From positions 1 through 47,391 of the forward strand of contig JASHQB010000265.1 in NCBI GenBank assembly GCA_030037775.1: DNA of 47,391 nt. Direction: 5' to 3'. The translations under genes and the position numbers were made by a program. Source of the stretch: Candidatus Acidiferrales bacterium (GTDB taxonomy: Bacteria > Acidobacteriota > Terriglobia > Acidiferrales > UBA7541). Positions 2,941 to 36,491 of the stretch are shown in pieces (position 1 is the stretch's first letter; each line of letters opens with the position of its first letter). Below the pieces are notes generated by a model. It saw only the letters and a program-made list of their open reading frames with translations, ran no database searches and was not told where the DNA came from.

Positions 2941-2977
2941 TGTTCTGATTTCTGAACAGACATAGCTCTGCTATAAT
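2941..2977 (+). promoter_or_regulatory. promoter with palindromic operator for the XRE regulator
   Basis: A perfect -10 hexamer TATAAT sits at 2972-2977. No good -35 is present at 16-18 bases, but an inverted repeat TGTTC-N8-GAACA (2941-2958) covers that position. A palindrome over the -35 next to an XRE gene suggests autoregulation (inference). Confidence 0.4.
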
Positions 2978-3015: not shown

Positions 3016-3753
3016 TTGTTTCCTGGTGCCCATCTTCGCCGAGTTCGAGAGCGGCTGGCTCTCACTTACCGCGATGTCGAACAGGCGAGCTATGAGCTCG
3101 CGCAACGACACGGCCGGCCGGAATTCATTATTCACCTCAGCCGGCTGGCGGATTTGGAAAACAGCAGTGTGGTTCCCGGCCTGCACAAACTATTCAGCCT
3201 CTGTTGCATTTATCATCTCGACCCAGACGAGGTTTGCCGTTGGTATGACGTTCCCCTTGACGACATTTTTACGGACGGAATGTCGTTCGTTGGCCCGAAG
3301 ACGCATCTTGCGGCGCCGCCGCGAACCATTCGTCTTCCGATTCATTTCGATCCGGCGTTTGATCCGCAGCGCACGACATACCTGACGCGAATGATCGAGA
3401 GCTGGGGGAACTTCGAAGCCATCTCTTTGACCCATGGACCAGGCTACCATTACGGTTACATCGGCGACGCCGATCACTGGATGGAGCCGCTGCTGCGACC
3501 GGGGGCGCTGGTTCTGGTGGATACTCGCCGGCAGAAAATCGAAGCCGGCGGATGGAGGAACGAAACGGAAAGGCCGATTTATTTGATTGATATACGCTCC
3601 GGATACCGTTGCTGCTGGTGCTTGCTGGAACGCAAACGGCTGATACTGCAGCCGCATCCACTGTCGCCGTGCGCGCCGGAAAATTATGAATTCCCGAACG
3701 AAGCGGAAGTCGTAGGAAGAGTGGTGGGCGTATCTATGCGACTGGCGTACTAA
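3016..3753 (+). CDS. XRE-type regulator with S24-like (LexA/CI) C-terminal domain
   Basis: 245-aa predicted DNA-binding regulator. Residues 1-75 form a helix-turn-helix of the XRE type (LRRVRERLALTYRDVEQAS, then LADLENSSVVP). Residues of about 120-240 resemble the S24 LexA/CI/UmuD fold, with GDADHWMEPLLRPGALVLVD aligning to the GDSM..DGDLVLVD core. The catalytic Ser that normally precedes Met is Trp here, and no clear catalytic Lys is seen, so the domain is probably a non-cleaving sensor or dimerisation module. Translation is placed at TTG 3016, with GGAG 10 bases upstream; no in-frame ATG fits the family start. The gene converges on, and overlaps by 20 bases, the unknown gene 3734-4183. The palindrome in its own promoter suggests autoregulation. 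Confidence 0.8.
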   Translation: MFPGAHLRRVRERLALTYRDVEQASYELAQRHGRPEFIIHLSRLADLENSSVVPGLHKLFSLCCIYHLDPDEVCRWYDVPLDDIFTDGMSFVGPKTHLAAPPRTIRLPIHFDPAFDPQRTTYLTRMIESWGNFEAISLTHGPGYHYGYIGDADHWMEPLLRPGALVLVDTRRQKIEAGGWRNETERPIYLIDIRSGYRCCWCLLERKRLILQPHPLSPCAPENYEFPNEAEVVGRVVGVSMRLAY

Positions 3754-4183
3754 CGGGGTCTTCCGCGGCGATCAATTGCAGCAACGTGGCAAGGTTCGAG
3801 CAGAAGAGCAGCCGGAGATAAACGGGAACACCGGAAGGAATCAGAAACCTGTAGAACTCGTGCTCGCGCCAACGCTGAGCAACTCCACTCGCACTGCTGT
3901 CAAATCCCCCCAAGCACCTGCGAATTTCGATCTCCTGATGCTCAAGCGAAGTCTCCAAAACCCTCTCGAACAGTTCTTCATGACATAGCCGCAGAGCCTG
4001 GTCGACAGCTGGCTCGGAATAAATCGCCGCCAATCCTTCGTGGCAATAACGACCAGTGGCCAGGTCGCGAAGCGTAGCAATATGCAGCAGCCGCGACACG
4101 TCGCCGGGAATGACCTCCAAAGTACGCGACGTGAAATCCTCGATCACGCGGCGATCTTGATGGAGTTGTTCCAAGCCTTCCAT
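3734..4183 (-). CDS. conserved-looking hypothetical protein
   Basis: 149-aa soluble, mostly helical protein that I do not recognise. It has no signal peptide, no clear transmembrane segment and no known catalytic motif. Its middle contains LHIATLRDLATGRYCHEGLA, then a His/Glu-rich helix (LCHEELFERVLETSLEHQEI), and the C-terminus LLFCSNLATLLQLIAAEDP is leucine-rich. The ATG at 4183 is preferred, with AAGGCGG upstream; an in-frame GTG at 4237 would add 18 residues. The 3' end overlaps the XRE regulator by 20 bases in convergent orientation, and the 5' end is divergent from the peptide-precursor gene at 4274. Position between a regulator and a secreted peptide hints at a shared function, but nothing in the sequence proves it. 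Confidence 0.65.
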   Translation of the reverse strand: MEGLEQLHQDRRVIEDFTSRTLEVIPGDVSRLLHIATLRDLATGRYCHEGLAAIYSEPAVDQALRLCHEELFERVLETSLEHQEIEIRRCLGGFDSSASGVAQRWREHEFYRFLIPSGVPVYLRLLFCSNLATLLQLIAAEDPVSTPVA

Positions 4184-4273
4184 TGTTGATGTTCCGCCTT
4201 CAGAACAGTTCGCCGGAATTCGTCTGCCCGCGGCCACCGCCTGAGAGAAGCGCGCTCCAGGAGGTGGTCGAAA

Positions 4274-4546
4274 ATGAAAGGAAAGGCAGCTTGTTTTCTG
4301 TTCGCCTGCGCGCTCCTTACGGCGATAGCAATCTCCGGTCGTTCTTACGTTAACTCCGCAGCACCGACAAACGCCAGCGTTAATTCAAGGGCCGTCTTTC
4401 TGGTCGACGGCGGGAACCCCATGCCGCCCTTCCCGCCTCCGCCGTCCGGACTGCGGTCCAACGGAGTTTCTCCCGTTCTTTTCGCTGACGGCGGCAATCC
4501 GATGCCACCGTTTCCACCACCTTCATCGAAATCGTCCAGCTCGTAG
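4274..4546 (+). CDS. small secreted precursor with two identical proline-rich peptides
   Basis: 90-aa protein with a Sec signal peptide (residues 1 to about 25-30; MKGKAACFLFACALLTAIAI core) and then two perfect copies of DGGNPMPPFPPP at residues 45-56 and 72-83, separated by a 15-residue linker, with a serine-rich tail. It has a strong ribosome site, AGGAGGTGG, 7 bases before the ATG. The two copies differ in 9 of 12 codons, all synonymously, so the peptide sequence itself appears to be under selection. I know no characterised family to assign. Layout resembles precursors that release repeated short peptides, or a secreted ligand with two binding motifs. It precedes, in the same direction, a 7-TM protein gene whose promoter carries an inverted repeat. 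Confidence 0.75.
   Translation: MKGKAACFLFACALLTAIAISGRSYVNSAAPTNASVNSRAVFLVDGGNPMPPFPPPPSGLRSNGVSPVLFADGGNPMPPFPPPSSKSSSS
4406..4522 (+). repeat. two in-frame copies of a 36-base peptide-coding repeat
   Basis: Copy 1 spans 4406-4441 and copy 2 spans 4487-4522. Both encode DGGNPMPPFPPP. Nine of 12 codons differ between copies and none changes the amino acid. Confidence 0.9.
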
Positions 4547-4620: not shown

Positions 4621-5391
4621 ATGCAGCTATCGTTTCTGGTTTCCTTGCACTGGGGCTTGAGCGCCCTTATCGAGGCGGCAGTTTTCGTCCTCGCAATCCG
4701 CCGGGGTCTTTTTGAGCGTCTGCCCATTTTCACGGCGTATCTTCTCCTTCTTTTGGTGAACGAAGCGACAACGGCAGCGGTTTACGCGACGACGGGAATT
4801 ACCTCGCATGCTTCATTCGTGACGGCGTGGACGCTGCAGGGATTGCTGGTTTCGCTCCGGGCGGTGGTCATCTACGAGATTTGCCGAAGCCTGCTTTCGG
4901 CTCACCAAGGCGTGTGGAGGCTCTGCCGACCGATCTTGATTGGCGTAGCCGTGGTCCTCGGAGTAACGGCAGGCACTGTGGCGGGGAGGAACGTGCACTT
5001 CCTCGAACAGTTCATCCTGACAGCGGAACGGGGGCTGGAGCTGGTTGTACTCGGTATCCTGCTCTTCGGCCTCATCTTCTGCCGATATTATGGCGTTCGT
5101 ATTGAGCGCCACCTGGCATGGATCGCGCTGGGCTTGGGACTTTACTCGGCTATACAGGTCGCGAATAATACGATGCTGCAACATTGGTTGCAGTATTTTC
5201 CCCTGTGGAATGACTTGCGGAACTTTTCTTTCAACATTGCTGTGGTGATGTGGATTATCGCAATCTGGCGGCCCTTGCCGACCAAGCACGCTTCAATGGT
5301 TCTTAGCGGCGACAAATACGGAGAGCTTGCACCGCAGGTGACGGCACGGCTGCGCGAGCTGAATAGCCGCCTGCTGGAGATATGGAAATGA
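4621..5391 (+). CDS. seven-transmembrane protein of unknown function
   Basis: 256-aa integral membrane protein. Seven hydrophobic segments are visible: about residues 5-26, 35-58, 66-87, 101-119, 138-159, 165-187 and 202-218. A soluble tail of about 38 residues follows, with a helical end (TARLRELNSRLLEIWK). I recognise no transporter or enzyme signature and no fused kinase or cyclase output domain; the topology is compatible with a 7-TM sensor, but that is inference. No ribosome site is visible before the ATG, and the promoter predicts a very short leader. The stop overlaps the next gene in an ATGA arrangement, implying translational coupling and probably a complex of the two products. The upstream neighbour encodes a secreted repeat peptide. 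Confidence 0.75.
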   Translation: MQLSFLVSLHWGLSALIEAAVFVLAIRRGLFERLPIFTAYLLLLLVNEATTAAVYATTGITSHASFVTAWTLQGLLVSLRAVVIYEICRSLLSAHQGVWRLCRPILIGVAVVLGVTAGTVAGRNVHFLEQFILTAERGLELVVLGILLFGLIFCRYYGVRIERHLAWIALGLGLYSAIQVANNTMLQHWLQYFPLWNDLRNFSFNIAVVMWIIAIWRPLPTKHASMVLSGDKYGELAPQVTARLRELNSRLLEIWK

Positions 5392-5942
5392 GTGCCACGT
5401 TCGCATTCATGGTGGTGCTGTCGATTCTTGTTCTTCTGGCACTGTTGTGGCTGATTTTTGGGCGGCAAACTCCCAAGACTGACCTGGCCGCGGCCGCGTT
5501 GGAAATCAAGAGGCTTCTGCCGGTGCATTGCAGCCATTTTCCGCAAATCTGCGGCATCCTGAAGGATGAGGATGAGCGGTTCATGCGCCGGCGTGCGCCG
5601 GCAGATATCACGAAGCGATGGCGGGCGCAACGGCGGCAGATTCTGCGGCTTTACATTCAAGGACTGGCCCAGGACTTTCGCGGCCTAGAAAGGCTGGCGC
5701 GGTTGATCGCGGCGCTTTCTCCAGAGGTCAAGCGAAAGCAGGAATGGGAATGGCTCTGGCTGGGAGTGCAGTTCCGCGTGCTTTATCGAGTGACGCTGGT
5801 GCGATTGGCCGTGCACCGGTTGGAGCCGAACGAACTGGCCACGCTAACGGAGATGGTAGCTGACCTGGGCCTGATACTTGGGCGCTGGATCGACCGATTG
5901 ACGGAGGCGCTGCCCCAGGCGCAGAGGAGCACAACGCACTGA
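5388..5942 (+). CDS. single-pass membrane protein of unknown function
   Basis: 184-aa protein with one N-terminal transmembrane segment (about residues 4-24, FMVVLSILVLLALLWLIFG) and a cytoplasmic, charged, all-helical remainder (positive-inside orientation). No known domain recognised. The ATG at 5388 overlaps the stop of the 7-TM gene (ATGA) and has GGAG with 8-base spacing; the in-frame ATG at 5382 is too close to that site. Expression is therefore coupled to the 7-TM protein. Arg-rich helices (FMRRRAPADITKRWRAQRRQ) and a repeated WEWLWLGVQFRVLYR stretch suggest a partner-binding surface. It may relay or anchor whatever the 7-TM protein does. I cannot name a function. Confidence 0.72.
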   Translation: MSATFAFMVVLSILVLLALLWLIFGRQTPKTDLAAAALEIKRLLPVHCSHFPQICGILKDEDERFMRRRAPADITKRWRAQRRQILRLYIQGLAQDFRGLERLARLIAALSPEVKRKQEWEWLWLGVQFRVLYRVTLVRLAVHRLEPNELATLTEMVADLGLILGRWIDRLTEALPQAQRSTTH

Positions 5943-6173: not shown

Positions 6174-6196
6174 GGCCTCGATTGAGGGGAAAAGGG

Positions 6197-7276
6197 TTGG
6201 CCGGGGAAAAAATACTCGTCTGCGACGACGAAGAAGCCATTCGCGAAGTGGTTTCCACACTCCTAGAAGCACAGGGCTACCGCTGCACGGTTGTTCCCGA
6301 TGGAAGTCACGCCATCCAGCAAATCAAGAACGATTCCCACGACCTGGTGCTGAGCGACATCGTGATGCCGGAGATGGACGGAATGCGTCTGCTGCGGCAG
6401 GTCCGTTCGCACGATAAGGACGTACCCGTGATTATGGTGACGGCGATGCACGATATCTCCATCGCTTTGGAGGCCATTCGCGCGGGGGCCTACGACTACA
6501 TCCTGAAGCCGTTTGAGAAGGACCAGCTCTACCACAGCGTGGGACGCGCGCTGGAGCATCGGCACCTAGTGCTGGAGAATCGGTCGTACCAACGCAACTT
6601 GGAGCATCTGGTGGCGGAGCGGACGCAACAACTCTCAGTGACGCTGCACAACCTGGAGCAATCGTACGACTACACGCTCGAGGCTTTGGGAAGCGCGTTG
6701 GACGCTAAGGATGCGGAGACGGAGGGACATTGCCAGCGCGTGACCGCGATCACCATCCTGATTGCCAGGATTATGAGAGTGGACAAAGACCGATTGCGGC
6801 ACATCGCGCGCGGCGCTTTCCTTCACGACATCGGCAAAATGGGAATACCGGACCAGGTGCTGCGCAAGCCAGGGCCGCTGACGGAGGATGAGCGCGAACT
6901 GATGAAGCGCCACTGCGACATCGGCTATACAGTGTTGAAGAAAATTCCCTTCCTCAAGGAAGCAGCGGAAATCGTGCTCTCCCACCAAGAGTTTTTCAAT
7001 GGCAGCGGCTACCCGCGCGGGCTCAAAGGCGAGGAAATTCCACTGGGGGCGCGGATTTTCGCGGTGGCGGACACTTTTGACGCAATGACGTCGGACCGCC
7101 CCTATCGAAAAGCGCTGCCGGTGAGCGCGGCGCGGGAGGAAATCCGAAAGTTCGCGGGGATACAATTCGACCCCCTGGTGGTGCAAGCATTCCTTACCAA
7201 ACCCGATATGTTCTGGGCGGACGTTCGCAAGAACATCGGAGATCCCTTCCATTACTTGCAGTTTGAAGATCCCTGA
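6197..7276 (+). CDS. response regulator with HD-GYP output domain
   Basis: 359-aa two-component regulator predicted to hydrolyse cyclic di-GMP when its receiver is phosphorylated. The receiver (about residues 4-118) has the acidic pair DD at 10-11, phospho-acceptor Asp54 in LVLSDIVMPEMDG and the conserved Lys in YDYILKPFE. A coiled-coil linker (about 120-160) leads to the HD-GYP domain with FLHDIGKMGIPD, the SHQEFFNGSGYPRGLKG signature and DTFDAMTSDRPYR. All diagnostic residues look intact. The TTG at 6197 is chosen because GAGGGG lies 7 bases upstream; an in-frame TTG at 6182 would add five residues. No cognate kinase is adjacent. The gene is followed 135 bases later by the peroxiredoxin, which has its own promoter. 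Confidence 0.9.
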   Translation: MAGEKILVCDDEEAIREVVSTLLEAQGYRCTVVPDGSHAIQQIKNDSHDLVLSDIVMPEMDGMRLLRQVRSHDKDVPVIMVTAMHDISIALEAIRAGAYDYILKPFEKDQLYHSVGRALEHRHLVLENRSYQRNLEHLVAERTQQLSVTLHNLEQSYDYTLEALGSALDAKDAETEGHCQRVTAITILIARIMRVDKDRLRHIARGAFLHDIGKMGIPDQVLRKPGPLTEDERELMKRHCDIGYTVLKKIPFLKEAAEIVLSHQEFFNGSGYPRGLKGEEIPLGARIFAVADTFDAMTSDRPYRKALPVSAAREEIRKFAGIQFDPLVVQAFLTKPDMFWADVRKNIGDPFHYLQFEDP

Positions 7277-30681: not shown

Positions 30682-32076
30682 CTATTGCTGGAAAAGCCAG
30701 GCGAGCGCGCTGTAGACGTCGAGCTCACCGTAGCCCATGTTTGGACCAATCCAGTTTGCATTCGAGATAGCAGTTGCAGCCGTGGATTGGTTCATTTGCG
30801 GCTGATGATTAATGAGCAGAGCAACGGTGCCGGCAACCATCGGTGAGGTAAACGAAGTGCCAGACGTCACCGAGTAAGTGCCGAACGGGTACGTACTGAC
30901 GACGTTCTCGCCCGGCGCAGCCACCCACACGACCTGATCCCCATAATTGGAGAAACTCGAGCGCTGATCGACGTCATTCGTGGACGCGACGCCCATCACA
31001 TTTTGCAGACCGGCGGGATAGACGACTTCATCTTCTCCGTCGTTGCCGGACGACGCCACGCAAACCACGTTGTTTGAGTTTGCGTAGTTTATGGCATCGG
31101 CCAATTCCGTCGAACTCGTCGAGAGTTCAAAGCTCATGTTGATGACGTTCGCGTTGTTTTGCACGGCATAATAAATGCCGCTCAGAATATTGGAAAGCGT
31201 ACCGGTCCCGTTGGCGCTGAATGTTTTCACGGGCAAAAGGCGAGCCGTTGGCGCGACCAGGTGGATCATGCCCATCACTTCCGTGCCATGACCAAAGGCA
31301 GAATACGGTGAACCATCCAGCATGGCGGCCGTATGCTGATCTAGCATCGCCGCGGTATGCTGGTCCACGAAAGCTGCTTGGCACGAGCTGCACGCCGTGC
31401 CGGTCGCTCCGTTCAGGTCCGTCATTTCCGAGCCGCCGGGCTGGTTGCGCGTGAAGTCGTAGCCCAGCAGCAAGACTGGTTTGAGCGCCGGGTGGTTCGG
31501 ATCAACACCCGTGTCGATGTCAGCGACAATCCCGGAACCCGTCAAGCCGAAGGCGTTCTGCGCCTGAGGCAGGTCGATTATTCCGGTGGCGGGCTGGTTC
31601 ACATAGCCGTTCCACACGATAGAGCCGTAATAGTTCACCGGACTTTCCTGATACAAGTACGTCGGAACAGTGGTCAAAAATGGCCCGGCGTTTGAAATCA
31701 CGGGAAGAACTACTAGTTGATCCGGCTCGGCGTCTATAATGCCGTCAACCAGCTCCAGAAGATCGGCAAGGACGCTGGGAAGCAGGCCCTGAGCTGGCTG
31801 CACCAAGAAAACCTGGTTTTCGCTGCCATCGAGATTGCGCAGAACGGTGCAGCCGTTCGCCAAGCAGACGTTCTGGAGGCCGCTCAAGCCGAGGTTCGTC
31901 CGCACGATAACCGCTTGTGGCTGACCGACTAGGTCCCCGACTGTCGCGGACACGCTCTGCGTAATATCAGAAACCAGGCTTCCAAGAAGTCCCTGGGCTG
32001 CTGCTACTCTTGGGAACAGCCCCAGAGTCAGCAATGTCAGAATCAAAGTTAACCGCCTCAAAGTTAACCGCTTCAT
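30682..32076 (-). CDS. secreted S8 family subtilisin-like serine protease
   Basis: 464-aa exported subtilase. Residues 1-28 are a signal peptide ending PRVAAAQ. A propeptide-like region (about 30-170) precedes the catalytic domain with Asp188 in VADIDTGVDPNH, His263 in FGHGTEVMGMIH and Ser408 in SGTSFTSPMVAG, plus the oxyanion region ASSGNDGEDE, so the triad is complete. Just before the catalytic His lies a perfect tandem duplication of DQHTAAML (residues 238-253). ATG 32076 has AAAGGAG 9 bases upstream; a start nine residues earlier is less supported. It follows the zinc-finger protein gene by 102 bases and precedes the HD-GYP gene by 36. Confidence 0.92.
   Translation of the reverse strand: MKRLTLRRLTLILTLLTLGLFPRVAAAQGLLGSLVSDITQSVSATVGDLVGQPQAVIVRTNLGLSGLQNVCLANGCTVLRNLDGSENQVFLVQPAQGLLPSVLADLLELVDGIIDAEPDQLVVLPVISNAGPFLTTVPTYLYQESPVNYYGSIVWNGYVNQPATGIIDLPQAQNAFGLTGSGIVADIDTGVDPNHPALKPVLLLGYDFTRNQPGGSEMTDLNGATGTACSSCQAAFVDQHTAAMLDQHTAAMLDGSPYSAFGHGTEVMGMIHLVAPTARLLPVKTFSANGTGTLSNILSGIYYAVQNNANVINMSFELSTSSTELADAINYANSNNVVCVASSGNDGEDEVVYPAGLQNVMGVASTNDVDQRSSFSNYGDQVVWVAAPGENVVSTYPFGTYSVTSGTSFTSPMVAGTVALLINHQPQMNQSTAATAISNANWIGPNMGYGELDVYSALAWLFQQ
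31318..31365 (-). repeat. tandem 24-base in-frame duplication in the subtilase gene
   Basis: Two adjacent units encode DQHTAAML-DQHTAAML immediately before the catalytic-His segment. The DNA copies are similar but not identical, so this is not a fresh slippage or assembly artefact. Confidence 0.85.
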
Positions 32077-32178
32077 GGTCGCCTGCTCCTTTGGCCGAAT
32101 CACCCGCTGAGAGTTCTAGTCTGCTACAACCAACGAACCGCTCAATGGTACAGACGGACGATTTCAGCACCTGAGATA

Positions 32179-32874
32179 CTATTCACCTTTCCTAGTACTT
32201 CGGTTCTTCCGAGTCATCATTTCATTAAATATTTTAGAATCAACCGACTCCAGCTTGCCGGTCAGAGCGGATACAGAGGGTACCAGAAGGCGAATCCTGA
32301 TATCCCGCGCCCGGGGTAATGCGAGCCGCAATTGGAGTTGCCCTTCCAAGGGGCATTCCAATTGGAACTCGCCGAGCGCATTCGTCTGCGAATGAGCCAC
32401 GACCTTGCTGCCGCGCAAAAGCGTGACGGTGGCCACAGAACCGGCCTTCGCGGGATCAGCCGCGTTCAGGACCTGTCCTACCAACGATACTTTGTCTGAA
32501 TCCATTTGCGGCTCCATACGCAGGTCGATTCGATAGGTCCCGACACCGTAAAGCATTTGCCGAGCGGTAGTTGCCATCGATCGAACACCGGCCGTGACTG
32601 GATTTTGAAAGCTGTCAAATAGCAGCTGTACCACTGACGCCTTTCCCGGGCGGGCATGGATCGGCAAAAGGCCCTTCGCGGTCCGCGTGGCGCTCTCTGG
32701 TGGCTCGTAAGAGTGCTCACGCCGGGCAACTTCGCGCACGCGTACCCAGGTCCCTAGGGCCTCACTGCACTGCTTACAGCCGGCGTCAAGATGAGCTCGC
32801 ATTCTCTCTTTCCTGTTGCTATCGACGACATCTCGGGCGAAATCGGCCCACTCCGTCAACGAAAAATGTTTCAT
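32179..32874 (-). CDS. zinc-finger anti-sigma-like protein with carboxypeptidase-regulatory-like domain
   Basis: 231-aa protein. The N-terminus resembles zinc-binding anti-sigma (zf-HC2/ZAS) modules: His28-x4-Cys33-x2-Cys36 in RMRAHLDAGCKQCSEAL, with another His at residue 3. The usual spacing is H-x3-C-x2-C, so it is slightly atypical. No transmembrane helix is apparent. The C-terminal part (about 125-210) is beta-rich and looks like a carboxypeptidase-regulatory/Ig-like fold (VSLVGQVLNAADP, VTLLRGSKVVAHSQTNALGE). The ATG 32874 start is chosen because the zinc module begins there; the frame extends to 33039 across the CHAT stop region. It follows the sigma-CHAT pair and may regulate the sigma factor (inference). 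Confidence 0.75.
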   Translation of the reverse strand: MKHFSLTEWADFARDVVDSNRKERMRAHLDAGCKQCSEALGTWVRVREVARREHSYEPPESATRTAKGLLPIHARPGKASVVQLLFDSFQNPVTAGVRSMATTARQMLYGVGTYRIDLRMEPQMDSDKVSLVGQVLNAADPAKAGSVATVTLLRGSKVVAHSQTNALGEFQLECPLEGQLQLRLALPRARDIRIRLLVPSVSALTGKLESVDSKIFNEMMTRKNRSTRKGE

Positions 32875-33007
32875 CTTCGCCCCCCAAAAAGTTTGCAAAT
32901 CCAGCGCTGCCAATTGCTTGGCATGCCGCCTCCCATTCCCTGCCTGTCTATAAGGGTATTGGCCCGCCGAAAAAATATAGGGGAGGAGAAAAATACTTGT
33001 GGCGGAC

Positions 33008-35884
33008 CTAGGAGCGCGAAGCCTTGCCAATGAGGACAAAAGGCGCCCAGTAGTAAGGATGCGGGTACCGCTCGCGGAGTTCGCGCATGGCTTCGCGCAA
33101 CGCCGAGGCCTTATTCGTGCCGTCTTGATAGCGCTTGTAGAATCGACCCATGAATTCGGCGGTGCTCTGGTCGTGCACGTTCCACAGGCTCAAGAGGAGC
33201 GATTGAGCGCCTGCATACAGCAAGCCGCGAATCAACCCCAGCAGTTCGTCGCCCGCTGTGACTACATTGAGTCCCGTGGCACAACCGCTCAGCGTGACCA
33301 GTTCAGCTCCGAGCTTGAGCTGATATAAATCATAGAGACTCAAATATGCATCGCCGAGCCGGATTCCGGAAAACATTGGATTGTCCTGCCGAAACGCGCC
33401 GTGCGTGGCGATGTGAATCAAGCGGCTGTGCAATCCCTTCGTTCGCAACACCTGCTGGTTCGCTTCCCTTCCCAAAACAAGCTCGGCGTTCGCCAATATG
33501 TTTGCCACGGATTTGGCTTCATCCAAAATGAGGGGCGCCTGGGCGTCCGGAATACCCAAGACCAAAGGCGCTCCTTGTGCGGTGGATGCTTTCCGCTGGC
33601 AGAGGGCGAAAACCGTGGCGCTGGGCGCGTATGAGACCGTATGCGAGTCGATCAGGTAGCGCTCGCCTTCAAACAGCGCATGAAATGGCAAATAGTGCAG
33701 AACGCCGTGCGGCACTATGACCAAATGACGAGTGGCCAGGTGGTCGCGCAACGGAGCCATCAACTCTTCGTGCAGCTCGCTGAGATGCGCCCGGGCCGCA
33801 TCCAGCAATGGCTTTTCGAATTCCCGCGTGTACGCCGCGCCGAGTTGGAACTTGGACATCTGGAAATGGAGCATGCGGAGCAGATTCACGATGCGCGAGA
33901 CAGGCGTGAGCGAGACAATGTTTAGTTTTTCCTTGCTCAGTACGGCAGCGACAAATTCGTCCTTGATGGCGAAATACTCGACGAGCACGGTTTCCGCAGG
34001 CATGCTGGCGCGAATCGTTTCCAGAGAAGCCAATGTTTGCTGCTGGTTCAGGGCCAGCGCTGTTTCCGGGGTGGGAAGCTCCCGCACGGCGCGCAAGAGT
34101 TCATTCTCGTGCGCGAGAGCCTGGTTCTGAAGGGCCTCGATGCGTTGCGGCGAGGGATCCGTACCGCGCAATTGCTCTTGCTCCAACCGGCGGTAGTACC
34201 AATTTAACTCCTCGCGCATCTCGCGGATGCGGCGCACCAAACCGCTTTGTCCAGCATCCGTGGCGGGAATTGCTTGCGCATGGTGCACGAGCAGCTCCGC
34301 CAAGCTTCGAGATTTTGCCATCTCCATGTAACTAAAGGATTCCTCGGCGCCGCCCTCCTTTGCATCGTCATTCAAACAAAGCTCCGCCAAGCGCTCGTAC
34401 ACTTCGAGCCTGTTCTTCATGAACGCGATCTTCAGTTCTTCGCTGCGCAGAGCGCTCCGTAGGGCCTCGAGAGCGGCTCGCGCTTTTTGGTACGAGCCGT
34501 AGGCGCCCTGCCGATTGTCCGTCTCTTGCTGAAGCTCGCCCATCAGGAACTCCGCCTGGTATCGCAGTGCCGGTGTTTCCAAAGAAGCCAGGCGGCTCAG
34601 CGCTTTTTCACACTCCGCATGTGCAACCGAGAGGTCGCCCGTGCGCAGCGAAAGCCGCGCCAGAAGCAACTGGCAAAGTACCGCTTTGCCGGGAAGGAAC
34701 GAAGTATCGAAGAATCCGGCAGCCCGCGAACACAGGCGCCGCGACTCAAACAAACGCCCTTCGTTGTACAGCACCAGAGCTTCGTAGAGATCGATCAGCC
34801 ATGGCCAAATCAGATTTTTTTCGCGAACGAACTTGACGCGGGCCTGATCGAATAATTCGACGGCGCGGAGCGCCTTTCCTAACTGACTCAAAGCCATCGC
34901 TTCGTTGGCCTGGCACTTCGCCTCCTCATAGCCCATGCCGAGCTTCTGGAATCGCAAATACCCTTCGTGCGCCACTTCCTGGGCTTCTGCGCTCAGATTC
35001 AACTCGAGATAAATCTCCGACAAGTCCAAGTAACACAGCGCCAACACATGCGCGTCGCCGTTCTCTTCGCACCTCTTGCGCGTAGCGCGCAGCATCTCAA
35101 TGGAGCGGCTGTATTCTCCGCGAAGGTAATAGAGATAAGCGATGTTGTAATCTGCCTGCGTGACGAGCAACGTCATCTGGTGCTGAACGCACATCGCGCG
35201 CGCCCGCTGGTATGTCGCCAGGGCACGCGGAAAATCGTTGAGTGTAATCAGGCAAACGGACATGTTATAGAGCGCTACCGCAAGGCCCTCTGAGTCTCGA
35301 AGCGGGAGCAGCGTTTCATACGCGCGCTCGTAGCAGGCCAAGCCTTCTTCGAATCGATCTTGGCGGTGATAGATATTTCCAACGTTGATTGCTAAATGCC
35401 CGAGCCGCTGCTTGTCTCCAAGACGCTCGAGAATTGCTCTGGCGTCGCCGGCCGCGGCGAAGGCACGGTCGTATTCTCCCAGCAAAATAAATGGCTGAAT
35501 GGAGGGAATCAAAGTGCGGGCTTCTTCCTGCGCGTTGCCGATTTCGCGAAATATTTCGATGGCTTCGGCGTGAAACCCCAGCGCCCGCTGATTATCGCCA
35601 ATCATGTACAGCGCGTTCGCTTTGGAGCGCAACGTCCGCCCCAAAATCTCGCGGTCGCGCGACTTGCGCGCGATCGCAACAGCCACCTCGGCTAACGACA
35701 GGGCTTCTCGGGTGTCCGCCCGCAGCTTCGTTCGAACGATTTCATTGAGCTGCTGAGCGACGTTCGCGCTGCAGAGCTTAGGGTGGCCCGCAAGGTAGCG
35801 TGCGCGGCTTGCCTCATCGGCGAGCTTCGACAAATCCAAAACTAATTTTGCCGGAAGCGATACTGTCTTTTTTCGCTGGGCCAC
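33008..35884 (-). CDS. TPR-CHAT protease
   Basis: 958-aa cytoplasmic protein with an array of tetratricopeptide repeats (about residues 45-480; units such as ALGFHAEAIEIFREIGNAQE and GLACYERAYETLLPLRDSEG), a coiled linker (about 500-600) and a C-terminal CHAT caspase-like peptidase domain (about 680-955). The catalytic dyad is intact: His828 in HIATHGAF and Cys868 in LSGCATG; the domain ends with PHPYYWAPFVLIG. CHAT enzymes cut specific protein targets after activation through their sensor part. The start GTG overlaps the sigma-factor stop (TAGTG), so the two are translationally coupled. The target is unknown; the sigma factor, the zinc-finger protein and an unlinked protein are all possible. 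Confidence 0.9.
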   Translation of the reverse strand: MAQRKKTVSLPAKLVLDLSKLADEASRARYLAGHPKLCSANVAQQLNEIVRTKLRADTREALSLAEVAVAIARKSRDREILGRTLRSKANALYMIGDNQRALGFHAEAIEIFREIGNAQEEARTLIPSIQPFILLGEYDRAFAAAGDARAILERLGDKQRLGHLAINVGNIYHRQDRFEEGLACYERAYETLLPLRDSEGLAVALYNMSVCLITLNDFPRALATYQRARAMCVQHQMTLLVTQADYNIAYLYYLRGEYSRSIEMLRATRKRCEENGDAHVLALCYLDLSEIYLELNLSAEAQEVAHEGYLRFQKLGMGYEEAKCQANEAMALSQLGKALRAVELFDQARVKFVREKNLIWPWLIDLYEALVLYNEGRLFESRRLCSRAAGFFDTSFLPGKAVLCQLLLARLSLRTGDLSVAHAECEKALSRLASLETPALRYQAEFLMGELQQETDNRQGAYGSYQKARAALEALRSALRSEELKIAFMKNRLEVYERLAELCLNDDAKEGGAEESFSYMEMAKSRSLAELLVHHAQAIPATDAGQSGLVRRIREMREELNWYYRRLEQEQLRGTDPSPQRIEALQNQALAHENELLRAVRELPTPETALALNQQQTLASLETIRASMPAETVLVEYFAIKDEFVAAVLSKEKLNIVSLTPVSRIVNLLRMLHFQMSKFQLGAAYTREFEKPLLDAARAHLSELHEELMAPLRDHLATRHLVIVPHGVLHYLPFHALFEGERYLIDSHTVSYAPSATVFALCQRKASTAQGAPLVLGIPDAQAPLILDEAKSVANILANAELVLGREANQQVLRTKGLHSRLIHIATHGAFRQDNPMFSGIRLGDAYLSLYDLYQLKLGAELVTLSGCATGLNVVTAGDELLGLIRGLLYAGAQSLLLSLWNVHDQSTAEFMGRFYKRYQDGTNKASALREAMRELRERYPHPYYWAPFVLIGKASRS

Positions 35885-36447
35885 TAGAATCCCGTTTCAT
35901 TGAGGCGCTTGCGCAGGCGTTCCAAGCAGCGCTGCCGAATGAAACCAACTGACCCGGTGGAAAGCCCGAGCTCCGCGGCAAGCTGCTGATAGGGGCGCGG
36001 TGGCTCTTCGAAAAACAGCATATGAATCAAGCGCTGGCAGCGCGGAGGAAGCTCCGAGACGGCATCCCGCAACGATTGCTCTTTCTCTGCCTCGCGCAAG
36101 ATTCCTTCGGCGCGCGCGGGAACGCTTGCTTCAAATGTTTCATCGCCTGGGTCGCGCGCCTCTATTCTTTGCAGCTGACGTTTGTGATGCAAACACTTGT
36201 GCGCCGCAACTTGTATAATCCACTTCGGCAGGGCCTTCGGCTTCCGCAGTTTTGGGAGCTCGGAAAGAAGCTCTACGCACACCGCCTGGAAGATGTCCGT
36301 GGCGTCATCGGTGGAAAAGCCGTACTTGATGGGAATCGAAAAGATAAGGTTCTTGTACTTGTCGATCAGCGCCGACCAAGCTGCTTCGCTGCCGCGCAGA
36401 CACTCTTTCACGAGCTGCGTGTCCGCCCAAACAGAAGCGCCCTCCAT
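35884..36447 (-). CDS. ECF-like sigma-70 family factor
   Basis: 187-aa sigma factor with region 2 (about residues 20-85: WSALIDKYKNLIFSIPIKYG, DIFQAVCVELLSELPKLRK and PKWIIQVAAHKCLHHKR) and region 4 (about 125-180: SELPPRCQRLIHMLFFEEPP, then LAAELGLSTGSVGFIRQRCL helix-turn-helix), without regions 1.1 or 3. This two-domain layout is typical of extracytoplasmic-function sigma factors. ATG 36447 is used; upstream GTG codons at 36453 and 36471 are alternatives. It overlaps the CHAT gene start and lies 44 bases after the peptide-binding protein gene, so it may be read through from the transporter operon. Confidence 0.87.
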   Translation of the reverse strand: MEGASVWADTQLVKECLRGSEAAWSALIDKYKNLIFSIPIKYGFSTDDATDIFQAVCVELLSELPKLRKPKALPKWIIQVAAHKCLHHKRQLQRIEARDPGDETFEASVPARAEGILREAEKEQSLRDAVSELPPRCQRLIHMLFFEEPPRPYQQLAAELGLSTGSVGFIRQRCLERLRKRLNETGF

Positions 36448-36491
36448 CGTCACTGAGGCCTTTCGGCGCACGGCTTGCCTAGTCTCGCGCT

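Follow-up and report, generated by a model that had tools for sequence, protein, structure and literature searches.

What does an acidobacterial protein do that is only 90 aa long and carries the same proline-rich unit twice? It is encoded in the window, the whole 47,391-nucleotide stretch of DNA that was analysed (contig JASHQB010000265.1 of a Candidatus Acidiferrales bacterium). A preliminary description of this DNA likened the protein to the precursor of a secreted peptide signal or a bivalent surface ligand. That reading was based on the precursor alone; most of the meaning is carried by the operon, a seven-helix (7TM) partner protein, a regulator and an operator. Taken together, the locus rather probably encodes a secreted peptide signal and a dedicated 7TM receptor that senses it, and an XRE-type regulator would provide feedback. 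The features concerned are as follows; S150 is a label for a soluble protein of about 150 aa.

2941..2958, no strand: second palindrome copy, TGTTCTGATTTCTGAACA; ends about 58 bp upstream of the XRE start codon, TATAAT just downstream
3016..3753, + strand: XRE-type regulator, 245 aa; N-terminal helix-turn-helix (HTH), C-terminal domain resembling LexA/CI
3734..4183, - strand: S150, small soluble protein of 149 aa; its gene and the peptide gene are divergent; proposed to act as a relay or modulator
4190..4207, no strand: candidate operator, palindrome TGTTCCGCCTTCAGAACA; in the S150-peptide intergenic region; kept in 31/32 loci of this architecture
4274..4546, + strand: peptide precursor gene, 90 aa; export segment at about residues 5-22, linker, two 12-residue units
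4406..4441, + strand: unit 1, DGGNPMPPFPPP, residues 45-56
4487..4522, + strand: unit 2, DGGNPMPPFPPP, residues 72-83; protein identical to unit 1, 9/12 codons different
4621..5391, + strand: 7TM protein, 256 aa; seven predicted helices, C-terminal cytoplasmic helix; proposed receptor
5382..5942, + strand: membrane protein with one helix, 186 aa; gene overlapping the 7TM gene at the latter's end; proposed to relay the signal

The precursor and its repeated unit

The peptide gene begins with ATG, and its product has the layout MKGKAACFLFACALLTAIAISGRSYVNSAAPTNASVNSRAVFLV-DGGNPMPPFPPP-PSGLRSNGVSPVLFA-DGGNPMPPFPPP-SSKSSSS. The precursor would be exported by its N-terminal segment, the export signal being judged solely by an N-terminal Lys and a hydrophobic stretch. 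The two identical tandem units with purely silent differences, as first described, are borne out: 9 of the 12 codons are changed, and every change is silent. Counted after Nei-Gojobori, the unit cores carry 9 differences over 9.0 synonymous sites and none over 27 nonsynonymous sites; with changes spread evenly over sites, nine silent changes out of nine would have a probability of (9/36)^9, about 4e-6. The flanks in the same alignment differ mostly by amino-acid changes (6.5 and 10.9 nonsynonymous vs 3.5 and 4.1 synonymous differences). The earlier claim of selection on the peptide is thus upheld, and the purifying selection on the unit is strong. Because the synonymous sites are saturated, the duplication is old, and its protein sequence has been held fixed since; it is not a fresh copy. 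The protein repeat is stronger than in composition-preserving shuffles. A DNA repeat finder reported no repeat in the peptide gene, as expected, because only the protein sequence is conserved.

A single-protein search with the precursor gave one match, in Streptomyces, which is spurious, the ORF there being unrelated. When the proteins of 95 genomes from the window's order were searched, clear relatives came up. They are small exported Pro-rich proteins with uniform units, among them three copies each of TADGGAPTPPLPPPSG, KADGGDPVPPWPKP and ADGSRPVPPPPPVQ, as well as ADGYPLPPPIPPK and others. The unit is uniform inside one precursor and different from species to species; the precursor family is large and without annotation. 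A weak match on contig C18 of the window's genome and many matches at E>0.01 were judged, by reading the ORFs, to be chance. The match on contig C101 overlaps a real 7TM gene and led to the peptide encoded there. Between the copies, pooled over 71 repeat precursors, pS is 0.47 and pN 0.03, a pN that is too low and overstates the constraint, since the stretches were picked by protein identity.

By their companion genes, the loci fall into two types. Type A has the XRE and S150 genes (84 loci were typed by XRE or S150). In type B, which has neither, a one-helix protein is present, the 7TM protein is shorter, and NGGAPQPPTPWK is an example of the units. The window's genome has one peptide locus of each type, type A in the window and type B on contig C101 (three copies of ASTGNPVPILPD). 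A second XRE and S150 pair in this genome (contig C236, 7514-8693) is accompanied by no peptide ORF or operator up to the contig end. Among 78 type-A precursors, 31 have a single unit, 22 have two and 25 have three to six, while type-B precursors mostly have three.

Reading the small ORFs of related genomes for copy number and neighbours, as had been suggested, thus reveals a family with 1-6 units and recurrent partner genes. Single-unit homologues exist, which goes halfway towards the refutation that the preliminary description had named, but the unit itself is kept. As the copy number varies from 1 to 6 within the order and reaches 8 in a distant relative, two copies are not the point, and the bivalent surface ligand is not supported. 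The secreted peptide precursor is well supported, by the uniform-unit homologues, the purifying selection and a constant membrane-protein partner. Tandem units would raise the peptide yield per precursor.

The family extends beyond the order. A 7TM profile search covered the phylum Acidobacteriota and a plasmid collection. Of 297 genomes taken from across the phylum, 40 encode a relative of the 7TM protein, a count that includes the window's own genome. Upstream of several of these 7TM genes outside the order lie repeat precursors with eight copies of SPMVVPPNPFPQPQPKGNSSKVAF, five of AANMPVFPTPPAVKT or three of AAGPWPFPDDSAGGNI. In three distant relatives (L192, L193 and L194), two tandem genes that each end in the same C-terminal peptide (such as VPVPACPPDDPNACGL) replace the in-gene repeats. 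The only relatives met that bear a name come from Acidisarcina polymorpha (Acidobacteriota, Terriglobia); two of its plasmids carry them, and the annotation calls both the small gene and the 7TM gene hypothetical.

The residues preceding the units suggest how the peptide may be released. Before the D that opens each type-A unit, Ala stands at -1 in 113 of 160 cases, against a background of 9% Ala, and Leu at -3 in 84 of 160. In the window, unit 2 fits this L-x-A pattern (LFA-D), and unit 1 has Val (FLV-D). It looks as if the chain were cut before D by an enzyme with a signal-peptidase-like taste. The precursor would then yield short Pro-rich peptides, here about DGGNPMPPFPPP, probably starting at the D after the L-x-A-like motif. 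No processing enzyme could be linked to the locus. A DPPIV-like S9 peptidase, of a Pro-preferring class by name, is encoded near the Pro-rich peptide gene (343-2664, - strand). It was rejected as a dedicated processing enzyme: among 24 long loci it is shared by the closest relative only, and its position is therefore a matter of synteny.

The 12-mer might also stay unreleased, in which case the 7TM protein of the same cell would have the whole Pro-rich tail as its tethered ligand or regulatory extension (cis envelope sensing). The export segment could remain as an anchor, and the single-unit members would fit, but the uniform repeated units, the divergent linkers and the L-x-A motif before the units suggest release, and this option is given very little credence.

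The seven-helix partner

Four partners recur around 25 peptide loci: a multi-helix membrane protein of about 256 aa in 24 of them, a one-helix protein in 22, and an XRE protein and S150 in 21 each. A survey starting from the membrane protein, with a profile built from the 7TM alignment, added about 80 further loci, which were scanned upstream for small exported ORFs. The 7TM family occurs in 92 of the 95 genomes of the window's order, with 1-6 copies each. In the full set of 133 loci, which takes in relatives from beyond the order, a candidate upstream ORF is present in 117, and 71 of those have significant tandem repeats. The same ORF finder was applied upstream of 320 other long ORFs as controls. 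A P-rich exported ORF precedes 103/133 7TM genes vs 7/320 control genes, and the upstream ORF contains repeats in 70/133 vs 3/320, two of these three being family members met again. The gap between the peptide and 7TM genes is narrow (median 102 bp in type A, 65 bp in type B). In 19 of 20 type-B loci compared, the one-helix protein follows the 7TM gene. Since type B keeps the peptide, the 7TM protein and the one-helix protein without XRE or S150, the peptide and the 7TM protein form the core of the system.

A small secreted peptide beside a polytopic membrane protein is also what a narrow-range antibacterial peptide would look like, with the adjacent 7TM protein providing immunity for the producer. 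This main rival explanation would also account for several cassettes per genome, for the divergence of both partners together and for a regulator of the LexA/CI-like repressor type; much the same pattern would be expected of an antimicrobial/immunity pair. However, the family is near-universal in the order rather than scattered, and the mature regions are not cationic (K+R 4.9% and D+E 6.4% in type A). No ABC exporter or maturation gene was seen among the conserved neighbours, and none of the five locus proteins matched the known anti-phage defence models of PADLOC. S150 and the XRE protein are hard to place in such a pair, and the conservation of regulator and operator also speaks against it. 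The antibacterial function is therefore considered unlikely.

For the 7TM protein, the AlphaFold2 model (pLDDT 91.1, pTM 0.81) has seven membrane helices and a C-terminal helix, and the topology predicted by the positive-inside rule is N-out/C-in, the arrangement of the GPCR/rhodopsin superfamily. The outer half is more variable than the inner half (entropy 2.71 vs 2.12, p=4e-9), which could partly be due to lipid-facing residues. Aromatic residues, Gly, Leu and single charged residues make up most of the conserved positions, and no conserved catalytic-looking residue set was found across 102 7TM proteins. This bears on the idea that the task of the 7TM protein is to process, export or anchor the peptide, which would itself be a surface or matrix component. 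Strict adjacency and covariation would suit a dedicated processing partner too, and structural proteins are often repetitive; against the idea stand the lack of a catalytic-looking set, the short units, the copy number down to one and the variability on the 7TM outer half. It is regarded as quite improbable. On the preferred reading as a signal, the peptide would be bound outside the cell or in the periplasm by the 7TM protein encoded just downstream.

The 7TM protein could be assigned to no family in Pfam, NCBIfam or the PDB sequences; what the 7TM and S150 profiles matched among PDB sequences was set aside as short or of low complexity. In Foldseek, the 7TM model comes closest to proteorhodopsin (4kly, E 0.063), and no match reaches E<=0.001; the yeast receptor Ste2 ranks third, far from significant (E 0.17). 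VIA gives Z scores of 10.6-12.1 to GPCRs (best: 12.1, rmsd 4.6, 215 aligned), below the 13 advised for helical bundles. Homology to GPCRs was weighed, and no claim to it is made.

The covariation of the locus proteins was compared in 69 type-A loci, where the mean distances are 0.49 for XRE, 0.58 for S150, 0.69 for 7TM and, on a different scale, 0.81 for the peptide. In partial Mantel tests that control for XRE and S150, the peptide correlates with the 7TM protein (r=0.43, p=0.001); its correlation with XRE given 7TM and S150 is negative (-0.30). At divergent loci, the peptide and S150 correlate with r=0.06 given the others (p=0.17) vs r=0.43 for the peptide and the 7TM protein, even though the S150 gene is physically nearer; at convergent loci, the values are 0.07 for S150 and 0.58 for 7TM. 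As the nearer gene is uncorrelated with the peptide, linkage alone does not explain the peptide-7TM covariation. The export segment, part of the same gene as the peptide, tracks the 7TM protein less (0.22-0.23). In pairs of loci such as L132/L110, the XRE proteins are 78% identical and the 7TM proteins 43%, and the peptides are unrelated. Shared descent of a two-gene cassette can, however, produce such covariation without binding.

The regulator and the palindrome

The XRE protein matched only HTH families. HTH_31 is found in 13/13 XRE members and lies below the Pfam cut-off in the window protein. Its C-terminal part gives weak Foldseek matches to a lambda-186 repressor hybrid (E 1.1e-3) and to LexA (E 1.7e-3), from a model with a pLDDT of 62 in which residues 81-163 are below 50. 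VIA matches of this model cover the HTH only, which superposes on PlcR, ComR and Rgg2. In an alignment with LexA by eye, the Ser position is W, R, T or another residue, and the Lys position falls in an invariant W-containing motif. S150, for which no Pfam family was found, is present in 79/95 genomes of the order.

When spaced word pairs in the regions upstream of the type-A peptide genes were counted without bias, a single palindrome stood out, GTTC-N8-GAAC. It is present in 32 of 70 such regions, where 0.5 are expected and shuffles reach at most 8 for any pattern. Its consensus is TGTTCYGNNNNCRGAACA, and it lies a median of 82 bp upstream of the peptide start codon. It is found in 31/32 loci with a divergent S150 gene, in 1/39 convergent loci and in 0/21 type-B loci, against a chance of 0.003 per locus; an operator common to all architectures is accordingly rejected. 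A further copy stands upstream of the XRE gene in 8/31 loci. From this co-occurrence, the XRE protein is inferred to bind the palindrome. Only one other exact copy of the window's operator exists in the genome, about 80 bp after a 468-aa ORF (C19:4937-4954). The direct regulon therefore looks small. Convergent type-A loci (such as L039-L043) have a different, weaker palindrome upstream of their peptide genes, TGGT-N10-ACCA / TGCT-N10-AGCA, in 9-10 of 35 loci vs at most 5 for any pattern in shuffles.

From the bound peptide, the signal would travel inward to the XRE regulator, a step in which the one-helix protein and S150 probably take part. The regulator would act at TGTTCYGNNNNCRGAACA in the S150-peptide intergenic region and, in the window, also at its own promoter, thereby closing a feedback loop. 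Against this signal reading stand the lack of a direct link from the 7TM protein to XRE, type B having no known regulator, and the convergent architecture lacking this operator.

Two further features of the window may be mentioned. A response regulator with an HD-GYP domain (6182-7276, + strand) adjoins the module and could be an output gene or plain synteny; close relatives (69-89% identity) stand beside 9 of 24 long loci, and weaker ones beside two more. At 30682-36471 (- strand), a subtilase, an unnamed protein, a TPR-CHAT protein and a sigma-70-like factor may form a caspase-like or regulatory set.

Relation to known systems and meaning

In outline, the proposed mechanism is like that of known peptide signalling. 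The locus resembles the RRNPP systems (Rap-Phr, PlcR-PapR, ComR-ComS, Rgg-SHP) in that a small exported propeptide is encoded beside an XRE-type HTH regulator, as in most type-A loci, and in that the peptide diversifies with its receptor. RRNPP_detector, which was applied to Firmicutes and viruses, defines the receptors by their peptide-binding TPRs (PMC10075063). Here, by contrast, the HTH is followed by a LexA/CI-like match, a weak one on the low-confidence model, instead of TPRs. The constant partner of the peptide is the 7TM protein, and XRE, in contrast to an RRNPP receptor, fails the coevolution test with the peptide.

In Agr-type and other peptide/histidine-kinase systems, a secreted peptide is sensed at the membrane, with autoregulation. 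Both traits are proposed for this locus, but no AgrB-like peptidase or histidine kinase occurs among its conserved neighbours, and the 7TM protein has no attached kinase domain. With microbial rhodopsins, among which its best, non-significant Foldseek match lies, the 7TM protein shares the number of helices, but there is no lysine among its conserved positions. The yeast alpha-factor precursor contains tandem copies of a short Pro-containing peptide. The likeness to alpha-factor and Ste2 thus lies in a tandem, Pro-containing precursor paired with a 7TM receptor, a role that is proposed here. Unlike for Ste2, there is no G-protein system; nothing points to common descent, and matches between helical bundles come easily.

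Family databases hold no named family for the components of the locus beyond the weak HTH match and a below-cut-off DUF match. The open literature searched contained no description of a peptide-7TM system, nor of peptide signalling in Acidobacteria. These loci may represent, with odds judged slightly short of even, a new class of bacterial cell-cell signalling that is widespread in Acidobacteriota and uses species-specific Pro-rich pheromones, tandem precursors and stand-alone seven-helix receptors, like alpha-factor and Ste2 and of separate origin. If the signal function is confirmed, the class is new; otherwise, the family is still new and the class claim falls.

Few soil bacteria are as abundant as the Acidobacteria, which are hard to grow. 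If the proposal is true, nearly every genome of the order has a private peptide and receptor, often several, which would give a handle on who talks to whom and possibly a route to growing these bacteria. Engineering would gain a collection of natural and diverse pairs of peptide and receptor. The loci would also be a bacterial example of a combination usually linked with fungi, tandem pheromone precursors and a stand-alone 7TM receptor for the peptide.
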